From contig JAAYBV010000001.1 in NCBI GenBank assembly GCA_012744475.1, forward strand, positions 1 through 64,000: a stretch of 64,000 nucleotides of DNA, given 5' to 3'. Below are positions 44,067 to 49,312 of this stretch, in pieces. Both the position numbers and the translations under genes were made by a program. Source of the stretch: Phycisphaerae bacterium. Its GTDB lineage: Bacteria; Planctomycetota; Phycisphaerae; Sedimentisphaerales; Anaerobacaceae. The first letter of the stretch is position 1, and each line of letters begins with the position of its first letter. Below the pieces are notes generated by a model. That model worked only from the letters and a program-made list of their open reading frames with translations, did no database searches and was not told the DNA's origin.

Positions 44067-44102
44067 ATGGCCCTATCACGGATACTCGTAAGGACGGATT
44101 TC

Positions 44103-46118
44103 ATGAAGATTTCGCTGAACTGGCTGAACGACTACGTCGAGACGGGACTTGCCGCCGAACGCATCGCGGCGATTCTGAGCGATCTGGGTTTTCCCTGCGA
44201 GGGGATCGAACGAGTGGGCGACGACACCGTGCTCGACGTCGAGGTCACCAGCAACCGGGGCGACTGTCTCAGTCACATCGGGGTCGCGCGGGAACTGGCG
44301 GCCGCGACGGGCAGGGAGCTGAGGCTGCCCCAGGTCGAACTGTGTGAAATGGACAGGGACGCGTCCGCATTCGTCGGGGTCGAAATTGCCGAGCCCTCTC
44401 TGTGCGGCCGATATACCGCCCGGGTGATCGAGGGCGTCACGATCGGACCGTCGCCCGAGTGGATGGTCAGGCGGCTGGAAGCCGTCGGGATGCGCAGCAT
44501 CAACAACGTCGTCGACGCGACGAACTACGCCATGATGGAAACAGGGCAGCCGCCGCACGCCTTCGACTACAACACCATCAAAGACAGCAGGATCGTCGTT
44601 CGCAAGGCCATCGCCGGCGAGCGGATCGTCAGCATCGACGGCTCCAACTGCGAGTTGACGCCGGAGATGCTGGTGATCGCCGACGCCAGGCGGCCGGTCG
44701 CCGTCGCCGGCGTGATGGGCGGCCTGGAGACCGAAGTGGGCGACAAGACCACCACGATTCTGCTGGAAGAGGCTCATTTCGATCCGGTCTGCACACGCAC
44801 GACGAGCCGCCGTCTGGCTCTGCCTTCAGAGGCAGCGTTCCGTTTCGAACGGCTCGTGGACATCGAGAAGATCGACTGGGCCTCGAGACGGACTGCACAG
44901 TTGATCGTTCAGGTGGCCGGTGGTCGCGTGGCCAAAGGCGTGGTGGACGCCTATCCAGGAAAACCTCAGCCCCGGCAAGTGACGATGAGGCTTTCGCGTC
45001 TGGGCAAGCTGCTCGGCATCGAGGTCCCCTCCGAGACGGTCCTGAAAATCCTCGCTTCTCTGTGCTTTTCGCCGCGTCTGTCGGACGGTTCGGTGGTGTG
45101 CTCGGTCCCCACGTGGCGCAGCGATATCCAGCGGGAGGTGGACCTGATCGAGGAAGTTGCCCGCGTTCATGGCTACGACAAGGTCCCCACGCGCAAGAGC
45201 ATCCGGATCGAGGCGGTGCCCGCCGACGCGCGTCAGAGGCTGGCCCAGTCCATCGGCGGCTTTCTCAACGGCTGCGGGTTCTATGAGACCGTCACCGTGA
45301 CGTTCATCGATCAGGCGATTGCCGCGCTGTTTGCCGACGGCGGCGCCATCGGCGACCTGGGTGTCAGGGACGTCTCTCGCAAGAGCGCCAATCTGCTGCG
45401 GCAGACGCTGCTGGGCTCGCTGTTGGAGGTCCTCAGGACGAATGTCAATGCCAAGAACCTGCCGTGTCGCGTCTACGAGATTGCCGACACGTTCAAGCCG
45501 AGGCAGGACCGAAATGCTCTGCCCGAAGAGAAGACCAAAGTGGCCTTGGTTTGCAGCGGCGACTTTCGTGAGCTGCGGGGCGCCGTGGAGGGGTTGATCC
45601 GGCATATCGACCGTCGGGCGACGGTCGATTTCGTGCCGGCCGATTGTTCTTGGGCGGATGTGGGCGCCGAGGTCACGGTCAACGGCCGCATCATCGGCGT
45701 GGCCGCTGTCTTCTCGGATGCCGTCCGGAATAGGTTGGACTTCAAAGATGTGTCGCCGTGCGGCGCCGAACTCGATTTCGCCGAGCTGCTGGAGCTGAAG
45801 GGCGCTCCGATCTCCATTCGGCCGGTCCCGCGTTTTCCGGCCGTCGAGCGCGACCTGTCGATCGTTGTGCCCGAGGACACGGCCTGGAGGGCCATTGCCC
45901 AGGCCATCGAGAGCAGCGCTCCGGCCGAGTTGGAGGACGTCCGATTCGTGGACATCTATCGAGGCAAGGGCATCGCACCCGACAAGAAGAGCGTGACCGT
46001 TTCCCTGCGATTCCGAGATGAAGACGGGACGCTGACGCACGAGACGGTCGATGGCTATCAGGCGGCCATCGTCCAGAGTCTCCATCAGGCCGTAGAGGCG
46101 GAATTACGGACATTGTGA
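44103..46118 (+). CDS. pheT: Phenylalanyl-tRNA synthetase beta subunit, short form without EMAP domain
   Basis: The 671-residue subunit shows the B1/B2 editing and B5 core: 'DLGFPCEGIERVGDDTVLDV', 'DVEVTSNRGDCLSHIGVARE', 'NNVVDATNYAMMETGQPPHA', 'AGVMGGLETEVGD' and 'RSDIQREVDLIEEVARVHGYD', ending in the ferredoxin-like anticodon-binding domain ('RFPAVERDLSIVVPE', 'RFRDEDGTLTHETVD'). Typical bacterial PheT is near 800 residues; the tRNA-binding OB-fold (EMAP-II-like) that normally follows 'GLEVEGIE' is missing. The gene is intact from AAGGA-preceded ATG to stop, so this is a stable short form. pheS is not in the window. Confidence 0.93.
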   Translation: MKISLNWLNDYVETGLAAERIAAILSDLGFPCEGIERVGDDTVLDVEVTSNRGDCLSHIGVARELAAATGRELRLPQVELCEMDRDASAFVGVEIAEPSLCGRYTARVIEGVTIGPSPEWMVRRLEAVGMRSINNVVDATNYAMMETGQPPHAFDYNTIKDSRIVVRKAIAGERIVSIDGSNCELTPEMLVIADARRPVAVAGVMGGLETEVGDKTTTILLEEAHFDPVCTRTTSRRLALPSEAAFRFERLVDIEKIDWASRRTAQLIVQVAGGRVAKGVVDAYPGKPQPRQVTMRLSRLGKLLGIEVPSETVLKILASLCFSPRLSDGSVVCSVPTWRSDIQREVDLIEEVARVHGYDKVPTRKSIRIEAVPADARQRLAQSIGGFLNGCGFYETVTVTFIDQAIAALFADGGAIGDLGVRDVSRKSANLLRQTLLGSLLEVLRTNVNAKNLPCRVYEIADTFKPRQDRNALPEEKTKVALVCSGDFRELRGAVEGLIRHIDRRATVDFVPADCSWADVGAEVTVNGRIIGVAAVFSDAVRNRLDFKDVSPCGAELDFAELLELKGAPISIRPVPRFPAVERDLSIVVPEDTAWRAIAQAIESSAPAELEDVRFVDIYRGKGIAPDKKSVTVSLRFRDEDGTLTHETVDGYQAAIVQSLHQAVEAELRTL

Positions 46119-46244: not shown

Positions 46245-46273
46245 TTGACGGACCCGCCGCCATATGGTATAAG
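46245..46273 (+). promoter_or_regulatory. Near-consensus promoter of the structured RNA
   Basis: TTGACG (46245-46250), 17-base spacer, TATAAG (46268-46273). Transcription should begin near 46278-46280, at the base of the RNA's closing stem. 46119-46244 holds no gene. Confidence 0.75.
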
Positions 46274-46277
46274 ACAA

Positions 46278-46512
46278 TTGCGGGCTGACCCCTGCAGTGT
46301 TCGTGAGAATGCGTACTGTTGAAAGAACCGATACCCGTTCTGAGGGAAATCAGGTCTTGCCGGGCCGGACATGCCTACTCGATAGGACATCCGGACGCGA
46401 GCAACGATTGCCCACCTTGCAGTAATGGGTTCTCTTCAAAATCCATTCTCACGGCACAGGTGGAGGTGAGCTGGCAATAGATAAAAGGCCTGTCTATGCA
46501 GGCCTTTTTTTT
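46278..46512 (+). ncRNA. Structured non-coding RNA, 6S RNA-like rod
   Basis: Promoter and strong terminator frame about 235 bases without a protein. It folds as one long rod: ATTGC/GCAAT (46277-46281/46474-46478), GTGAGAATG/CATTCTCAC (46303-46311/46444-46452), TTGAA-GAACC pairing with GGTTC-TTCAA (46319-46329/46428-46439), an open central region, and an apical arm with TTGC/GCAA (46357/46401), CCGGA/TCCGG (46365/46390) and CCTA/TAGG. A helix-bubble-helix rod of about 200 bases with a small hairpin possible on the 3' bubble strand (CCCA/TGGG) is the layout of 6S RNA, which holds RNA polymerase. 5' GCGGGC..(A/T)CCCCTG also resembles E. coli 6S. SRP, RNase P and tmRNA core motifs were looked for and not found. 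Confidence 0.55.
46483..46512 (+). terminator. Intrinsic terminator of the structured RNA
   Basis: AAAAGGCCTG (46483-46492) pairs perfectly with CAGGCCTTTT (46499-46508) across a six-base loop and runs into eight T residues (46505-46512). Confidence 0.92.
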
Positions 46513-46696: not shown

Positions 46697-49312
46697 ATGC
46701 CGAGTGTCCGTAACTTCACCGTTCTGCCAGCTCTGCCGGACTGTCTGCAAGAGTTGGATTACGTCGCGAGGAATATGTTCTGGGCCTGGAACCCACCGCT
46801 TGTGGAGTTGTTCAAGCGGATTGACCCGAACCTGTGGGTGGCCTGCGGCCACAATCCGGTCAAGCTGCTGGGGGCCGTCTCGCAGACGCGTCTGCAGGCA
46901 CTGGCGCGCAATGAGAGCTTCCTGAACGAGTTGAAGCAGGCGGCAGCGGCATCGCGATCGTATCTCCAATCCTCGACCTGGTACGAGAGGGTTTGTCCGC
47001 AGACGAGCAGAGAGGTCGTCGCGTATTTCAGTGCGGAGTTCGGACTCCACGAATGCCTTCCGATCTACTCCGGCGGCCTGGGAATTCTCGCGGGCGACCA
47101 TCTCAAGAGCGCCAGCGATCTCGGCATCCCGCTGGTCGGCGTCGGTCTGATGTACCAGAAGGGCTACTTCCGCCAGTACCTGAACATCGACGGCTGGCAG
47201 CAGGAGGCCTACGTGGAGAACGACGTGTTCAACATGCCGATGGAGCTGGTCCGCAAGGAGAGCGGCCGGCCCCTGACGGTGAGCGTCGAGTATCCCGGCC
47301 GCAACGTCCAGGCGCAGGTCTGGTGCATCTGCGTGGGTCGGATCAAGCTGTATCTTCTGGACACCAACATCGCTCCGAATTCGTCGGTCGACCGCATGAT
47401 TACCAGCAACCTTTACGGCGGCGACCGCGAACTGCGAATCCGCCAGGAGATCCTGCTCGGCATCGGCGGGCTCAAGGCCCTGCTGGCGATGGGCATTGAG
47501 CCGACGGTCTGCCACATGAACGAGGGGCACGCCGCCTTCATGGCGCTGGAGCGCATTCGACAACTGCGCAATGCCAAGAACATGACGTTCGAGGAAGCGG
47601 TGGAAGCGACCCGCTCCGGCAACGTCTTCACGGTCCACACCCTGGTCAAGGCCGGCCTCGACGAGTTCAGCGTGGAGCTGATGGACAAATACTTCGGAGG
47701 CTACTTCCCGCACCTGGGTGTGAACCGCACGCAGTTCCTGTCCCTGGGACGGCTTCTGCCGGACGATGAGGCCGAACCGTTCAAAATGCCGGTGCTGGCC
47801 ATTCGCTTGAGCGGCTACGTCAACGGCGTCAGCAAACTGCACGGGCAGATCTCGCGCGAAGTGTGGGGATCGCTATGGCCCGGCATTCCGGAGAAGGAAG
47901 TTCCGATCATCTCGATCACCAACGGTATCCATCTCAAGACGTGGCTGTCGGAGGAGATCGGCAGTCTGTACCAGCGGTATCTGGGTCCGTCCTGGTCCGA
48001 GAGCGTGTTCGACAAGTCGGTGTGGGACCAGACCGATCAGATTCCGGACGAGGAGTTGTGGAGCGCCCATCAGCGCTGCAAGGAACGGCTGATCGTGTTC
48101 GCCCGCAAGCGGCTGATGGCCCAGATGCAGCGTCGCGGCCGGTGTCATGGCGAGCTGCGGCAGGCCGAAGAAGTGCTTGACCCCAAGGCCCTGACGATCG
48201 GTTTCGCCCGGCGCTTCGCCGCCTACAAACGCGGCGATCTGCTCCTCCGGGACGCGAAGCGTCTGGCCAGGCTGCTGAACGATCCGGAGCGCCCGGTCCA
48301 GTTCATCTTTGCCGGCAAGGCCCATCCGAAGGACACCGGCGGCAAGGAGATCATCCGCCATATCATCCATTTCGCCTCCGACGAGACCGTGCGACGGCGC
48401 ATCGTCTTCCTGGAGGACTACGACATGGACGTGGCGCGATTCCTCGTGCGAGGCGTCGATGTCTGGCTGAACAATCCGCGTCGGCCGATGGAAGCCAGCG
48501 GCACCAGCGGCATGAAAGCGGCGGTCAACGGCGTGCTGAACATGAGCACCCTCGATGGCTGGTGGCCCGAGGGGTACATTCCCGAAGGCGGCTGGGTCAT
48601 TGGCGACGAGCAGAACTATCAGAACCAGGACTACCAGGACATGATCGAGGCGCAGGCGATCTACAGCATCCTCGAGAACGAGGTGGTGCCGCTGTATTAC
48701 ACCCGCAGCGCTGACGACCTGCCCCGCGCGTGGATTGCGAAGATGAAAGCCACCATCCGGTGGGTCGGGCCGCGTTTCAACACGCATCGCATGCTGGCCG
48801 AGTACGTGCGCCGGTTCTACAACCCGGCGGCGGCTCGCTATCGATACCTGGCCGCCGAAGCGATGAGCCGGGCGAAGGCCTTCTCTCGCTGGAAATCGGA
48901 GATTCGCCAGGCCTGGTCGGAGTTTGCGGTCAGGGACGTCACGGTGCTGGTCAACGGCGAGCAAGACGAGGAGCGGTTGAATCCGAGGCAGCCGCAGTTG
49001 AAGGTGGGCTCGGAGCTGAACGTTCGCGCGTTGGTCAAACTGGGGCGCGTTCGTCCGGAAGACGTCTCTGTCGAGCTGTATTCGGGACCGACCGATTCCT
49101 GGGGCAACATTCAGGAGGGTTCGCCCGTCGCGATGCGGCACGAGCAGAGAGCCTCGGACGATGGAGAGCACTGGTTCACCGGCTCGATGGAGTGCAAGAC
49201 GACCGGACAGCATGGCGTGGCCGTCCGCGTCCTGCCCAGCCATCCCGATCAGGTCAATCCCTACGATCTGGGCCTCATCCTCTGGGAAAAACGGCCCAGC
49301 GGATCGCTGTAA
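46697..49312 (+). CDS. glgP: Alpha-glucan (glycogen/starch) phosphorylase
   Basis: The 871-residue enzyme of the short bacterial/archaeal phosphorylase type releases glucose-1-phosphate from alpha-1,4-glucan. It begins with the DUF3417 lead ('ELDYVARNMFWAWNPPLVEL') and has 'VAYFSAEFGLHECLPIYSGG' and 'LAGDHLKSASDLG'. The PLP lysine is K607 in 'EASGTSGMKAAVNG'. The conserved HTPVPAG loop reads H314-T-L-V-K-A-G here. The C-terminal 110 residues form an extra beta domain. The ATG at 46697 follows GAGGAG. The gene begins 184 bp after the RNA terminator and has no clear promoter of its own in that gap. Confidence 0.92.
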   Translation: MPSVRNFTVLPALPDCLQELDYVARNMFWAWNPPLVELFKRIDPNLWVACGHNPVKLLGAVSQTRLQALARNESFLNELKQAAAASRSYLQSSTWYERVCPQTSREVVAYFSAEFGLHECLPIYSGGLGILAGDHLKSASDLGIPLVGVGLMYQKGYFRQYLNIDGWQQEAYVENDVFNMPMELVRKESGRPLTVSVEYPGRNVQAQVWCICVGRIKLYLLDTNIAPNSSVDRMITSNLYGGDRELRIRQEILLGIGGLKALLAMGIEPTVCHMNEGHAAFMALERIRQLRNAKNMTFEEAVEATRSGNVFTVHTLVKAGLDEFSVELMDKYFGGYFPHLGVNRTQFLSLGRLLPDDEAEPFKMPVLAIRLSGYVNGVSKLHGQISREVWGSLWPGIPEKEVPIISITNGIHLKTWLSEEIGSLYQRYLGPSWSESVFDKSVWDQTDQIPDEELWSAHQRCKERLIVFARKRLMAQMQRRGRCHGELRQAEEVLDPKALTIGFARRFAAYKRGDLLLRDAKRLARLLNDPERPVQFIFAGKAHPKDTGGKEIIRHIIHFASDETVRRRIVFLEDYDMDVARFLVRGVDVWLNNPRRPMEASGTSGMKAAVNGVLNMSTLDGWWPEGYIPEGGWVIGDEQNYQNQDYQDMIEAQAIYSILENEVVPLYYTRSADDLPRAWIAKMKATIRWVGPRFNTHRMLAEYVRRFYNPAAARYRYLAAEAMSRAKAFSRWKSEIRQAWSEFAVRDVTVLVNGEQDEERLNPRQPQLKVGSELNVRALVKLGRVRPEDVSVELYSGPTDSWGNIQEGSPVAMRHEQRASDDGEHWFTGSMECKTTGQHGVAVRVLPSHPDQVNPYDLGLILWEKRPSGSL

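Follow-up and report, generated by a model that had tools for sequence, protein, structure and literature searches.

A 6S RNA gene between pheT and an alpha-glucan phosphorylase gene in a Phycisphaerae bacterium

A forward-strand locus at 46278-46480 of the 64,000-nucleotide stretch of DNA analysed here (the window) is almost certainly a gene for 6S RNA (SsrS), the open-promoter mimic that holds RNA polymerase in check, and by homology its product would share the mechanism of that family. The Rfam 15 model of 6S RNA (RF00013) matches positions 46286-46470 at 63.1 bits, relative to a gathering score of 46.4, and does so over its full length (model positions 1-187 of 187), this being the sole Rfam 15 match across the whole window. 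A permissive Rfam scan of 46245-46512 revealed no competitor near its cut-off, with STnc350 (19.4 bits, cut-off 60) and Thr_leader (18.4 bits, cut-off 55) as the next-best families, and other Rfam families were rejected as none reached its curated cut-off. The initial annotation, made from the letters of the DNA, had called the RNA a probable divergent 6S RNA and had proposed a 6S covariance search as a check; the call is upheld by this full-model match, by compensatory changes among relatives and by the match of the relatives' own model to E. coli ssrS, and no other family scores close enough to contest it. Its warning that ordinary searches may miss so divergent a sequence holds for BLASTN against E. 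coli genomes, which returned no match to the window RNA, an absence expected for a fast-evolving RNA, but not for covariance searches, in which RF00013 scores well above its threshold. The window RNA is an ordinary and well-supported addition to the known 6S family, and of little surprise as such.

The RNA is framed by signals of its own. The sigma70-type promoter at 46245-46273 (+) consists of TTGACG (46245-46250), a 17-nt spacer and TATAAG (46268-46273), with a TG at 46265-46266 characteristic of an extended -10 element; it carries 10 of the 12 consensus bases, which about 2 in 10,000 shuffles of the upstream 75 nt achieve at that distance (P ~0.0002). Our built-in consensus scan reported the terminator and not the promoter, because it demanded T at the last -10 position, where TATAAG ends in G. 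Promoters with at least 9 of 12 consensus bases are found at the matching place in 40 of 49 homologues, versus 2.6 expected from shuffles. The intrinsic terminator at 46483-46512 (+) comprises an 11-bp stem (46483-46508) closed by a 4-nt loop and followed by a T-run to 46512, and all 49 homologues have a terminator within 60 nt of the RNA, where 0.25 would be expected. Placing the start 7 nt past the -10 box and the end in the T-run gives a putative primary transcript of ~233 nt at 46280-46512 (+). The ~230 nt between promoter and terminator are structured and hold no recognised gene; likewise, from the end of pheT (46118) to the start of the phosphorylase gene (46697) there is no known gene, and the open reading frames are short or antisense. 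The near-consensus promoter, the stretch of about 235 non-coding bases and the intrinsic terminator described in the initial annotation are thereby all recovered, and these signals support a discrete non-coding gene of ~200 nt, expressed, as its sequence would have it, from its own promoter as a ~230-nt transcript ending at the terminator.

The comparison of relatives indicates that the rod of helices, in which a central bubble lies between the closing stem and the apical stem, is real and covarying. The single-strand fold reaches -103.9 kcal/mol, as opposed to a mean of -72.7 for dinucleotide shuffles (z = -6.3). In a MAFFT alignment of 40 homologues, which was not fitted to the Rfam structure, the RNAalifold consensus contains 43 pairs, 24 of which have changed on both sides, so that the check for compensating changes suggested in the initial annotation comes out in favour of the fold; 94.9% of cells are paired. 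Cells changed on both sides number 164 versus 45.5 in shuffles, and the covariation score is 0.342 versus 0.181 in shuffles (0 of 500 as high) and 0.06-0.10 in slid registers, where 37-47% of cells are paired. As the Rfam model found the homologues and the consensus derives from the same alignment, this test favours the unslid register, and the compensatory changes are its stronger part.

In consensus coordinates, the closing stem pairs 46290-46311 with 46444-46466 (both +) through 19 pairs, 10 of them changed on both sides and with 95% of cells paired. Further in lies the downstream (P2-like) helix, in which GAACC at 46325-46329 pairs with GGUUC at 46428-46432 (both +); 96.5% of the cells of its five pairs are paired, and the first pair is compensatory between G-C and A-U in 14 sequences. 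The two sides of the central bubble, 46330-46344 and 46413-46427 (+), are unpaired in the consensus save for an isolated pair, 46338:46419, that crosses the bubble and is weak (80% of cells). In E. coli 6S RNA a -10-like recognition region occupies the place that matches the 3' side of this bubble (PMC8876501). The apical (internal) stem and loop at 46345-46412 (+) is formed by interrupted helices (46345-46351/46406-46412, 46361-46370/46389-46397 and 46374-46377/46383-46386), and 13 of its 18 pairs have changed on both sides.

An order-level model, R1, was built from 40 of the homologous RNAs. R1 scores the window RNA at 194 bits, which is no independent proof since the model contains the window sequence, and it matches E. 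coli ssrS at 33 bits over the whole ssrS length. In this alignment U46332 of the window, within GAACCGAUA, lies opposite E. coli U44, within GAGCCGAUA, and U44 is the pRNA start in E. coli 6S RNA (PMC8876501). The start motif reads AACCGAU in the window and AGCCGAU in E. coli; among the 40 relatives, alignment columns 52-55, 57 and 58 (AACC.AU) are invariant and column 56 is G in 37. The alignment thus places the predicted start nucleotide of the pRNA in the 5' bubble beside the downstream helix, with a predicted pRNA 5'-AUCGGUUCUUUCAAC... (46312-46332, -) whose first five bases are identical to those of the pRNA predicted likewise from E. coli U44.

By analogy with the E. coli and Bacillus systems, the RNA would mimic an open promoter, bind the housekeeping sigma70/sigmaA RNA polymerase holoenzyme and repress transcription under nutrient scarcity. 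On the return of NTPs, the polymerase would use the bubble as template from U46332 and synthesise a short pRNA beginning AUCGGUUC, which would melt the downstream helix and release the enzyme. The primary-sigma region 1.2 is present in two sigma70 proteins of the genome. It is very improbable that the RNA binds the polymerase core without sigma, as does Ms1 of actinobacteria: a passage in PMC9130861 describes Ms1 as structurally related to 6S RNA and as a ligand of core polymerase, and to that extent the two share a 6S-like structure, but the window RNA matches no Rfam family other than 6S above its curated score and retains the start motif of the E. coli pRNA as well as the downstream helix.

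By PheT searches, the window belongs to the class Phycisphaerae of Planctomycetota and probably to Sedimentisphaerales, the name on several of the best-matching records. Across the source genome and 60 relatives, the Rfam model finds a 6S match in 49 of the 61 genomes and R1 in 53. The source genome yielded one 6S copy, and a search of it for a second found none. Within the genus, one draft assembly of 660 contigs (G001) gave no 6S match, and four other species carry 6S RNA with strong scores. More widely, a significant match is present in at least 174 of 391 sampled genomes of the phylum, a lower bound because few candidates were scored per genome, and one that does not imply absence elsewhere. 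In one of the genomes of the phylum (G360) two 6S matches were seen (C1:274203-274382 and C12:1007728-1007907); neither reaches the Rfam cut-off, and the pair may represent a duplicated 6S gene. A statement in PMC5673643, citing Wehner et al. 2014, reports that Pirellula staleyi and Rhodopirellula baltica lack 6S RNA, which contrasts with the number of matching genomes found here. The locus adds a well-supported 6S RNA to a little-studied phylum, and its mechanism would be the one already known.

Upstream the RNA is flanked by pheT (44067-46118, +; Pfam B3_4, B5, FDX-ACB and tRNA_synthFbeta) and downstream by an alpha-glucan phosphorylase gene (46697-49312, +; Pfam Phosphorylase and DUF3417). 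Of the 72 loci with PheT that have 600 nt or more of sequence beyond it, 38 have a 6S RNA that starts less than 600 nt past the pheT stop, and six more have one at a greater distance. The linkage is common and not fixed, since L031 and L094, the loci whose PheT comes closest (85%), hold other genes, and no 6S match, in the 4 kb after pheT. A phosphorylase homologue is present in 28 of 79 loci, and within the genus and family of the source organism it flanks 6S RNA in several genomes. This conserved order, with the RNA upstream of the phosphorylase gene and on its strand, is what a cis-acting leader or attenuator of that gene, as opposed to a free RNA, would display; such a role is nonetheless exceedingly improbable given the terminator that follows the RNA in every homologue, the many relatives whose RNA has no phosphorylase match in the examined flank, and the failure of any leader family to reach its Rfam cut-off.

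An AAA+ ATPase gene (PF00004; 42450-43958, -) precedes pheT and runs in the opposite direction, and in L067 and L097 the pheT strand encodes an AAA+ protein of similar appearance between pheT and 6S RNA; these differences in placement suggest local rearrangement around 6S RNA. A gene for a PTS EIIA-2 domain protein (PF00359; 49333-49824, -) adjoins the phosphorylase gene, and ARAGORN found no tRNA and no tmRNA in the window (1-64000). We rejected zapA as an ancestral link between pheT and 6S RNA, as no ZapA match was found in the source genome; among the open reading frames between pheT and 6S RNA in relatives with longer gaps, read by eye, none was recognised as zapA.

With the locus taken as a 6S RNA gene, the behaviour of the bubble in the free RNA deserves comment. 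In the free-energy ensemble of the window RNA most of the bubble is paired on either side, with mean unpaired values of 0.15 and 0.29, and forcing the consensus fold on it costs ~9 kcal/mol above its own minimum. The bubbles of most relatives are more open in the free fold (0.3-0.8 unpaired, commonly 0.4-0.8), and E. coli 6S RNA, treated likewise but with bubble limits that are approximate, has values of 0.84 and 0.34. Of the proposal in the initial annotation that mutually consistent helices surround a central open region, the covarying helices stand and the comparison of relatives supports the opening, but the RNA's own thermodynamic fold largely closes the bubble. A decayed 6S pseudogene, the reading that a minimum-energy fold with most of the bubble paired might encourage, is extremely unlikely when promoter, terminator, helices and pRNA start motif are all intact and the gene is kept, with strong scores, in four other species of the genus. 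The modelled closure may reflect either a collapsed resting state or an inaccurate energy model. It is a rather doubtful conjecture that 6S RNA of this lineage rests with a collapsed bubble when free and is opened by polymerase only, and that the gene order shared with Aquifex marks an ancient chromosomal pheT-6S linkage and is no coincidence.

Set beside E. coli ssrS, the window RNA shares a full-length covariance match, a rod whose comparative consensus has a central bubble, a downstream helix adjoining CCGAU, and the segments UGUUCG, CACCUUG and GGGUUC. It differs in its lack of BLASTN similarity, in a bubble predicted to be more closed in the free RNA, and in its neighbours, which are pheT and the phosphorylase gene in the window and zapA and fau in E. 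coli. The 6S entry of Aquifex aeolicus is flanked by pheT (table in PMC4227106) and in this respect resembles the window 6S RNA, whereas the pRNA is proposed to start with G in Aquificaceae (PMC4227106) and predicted to start with A in the window RNA.
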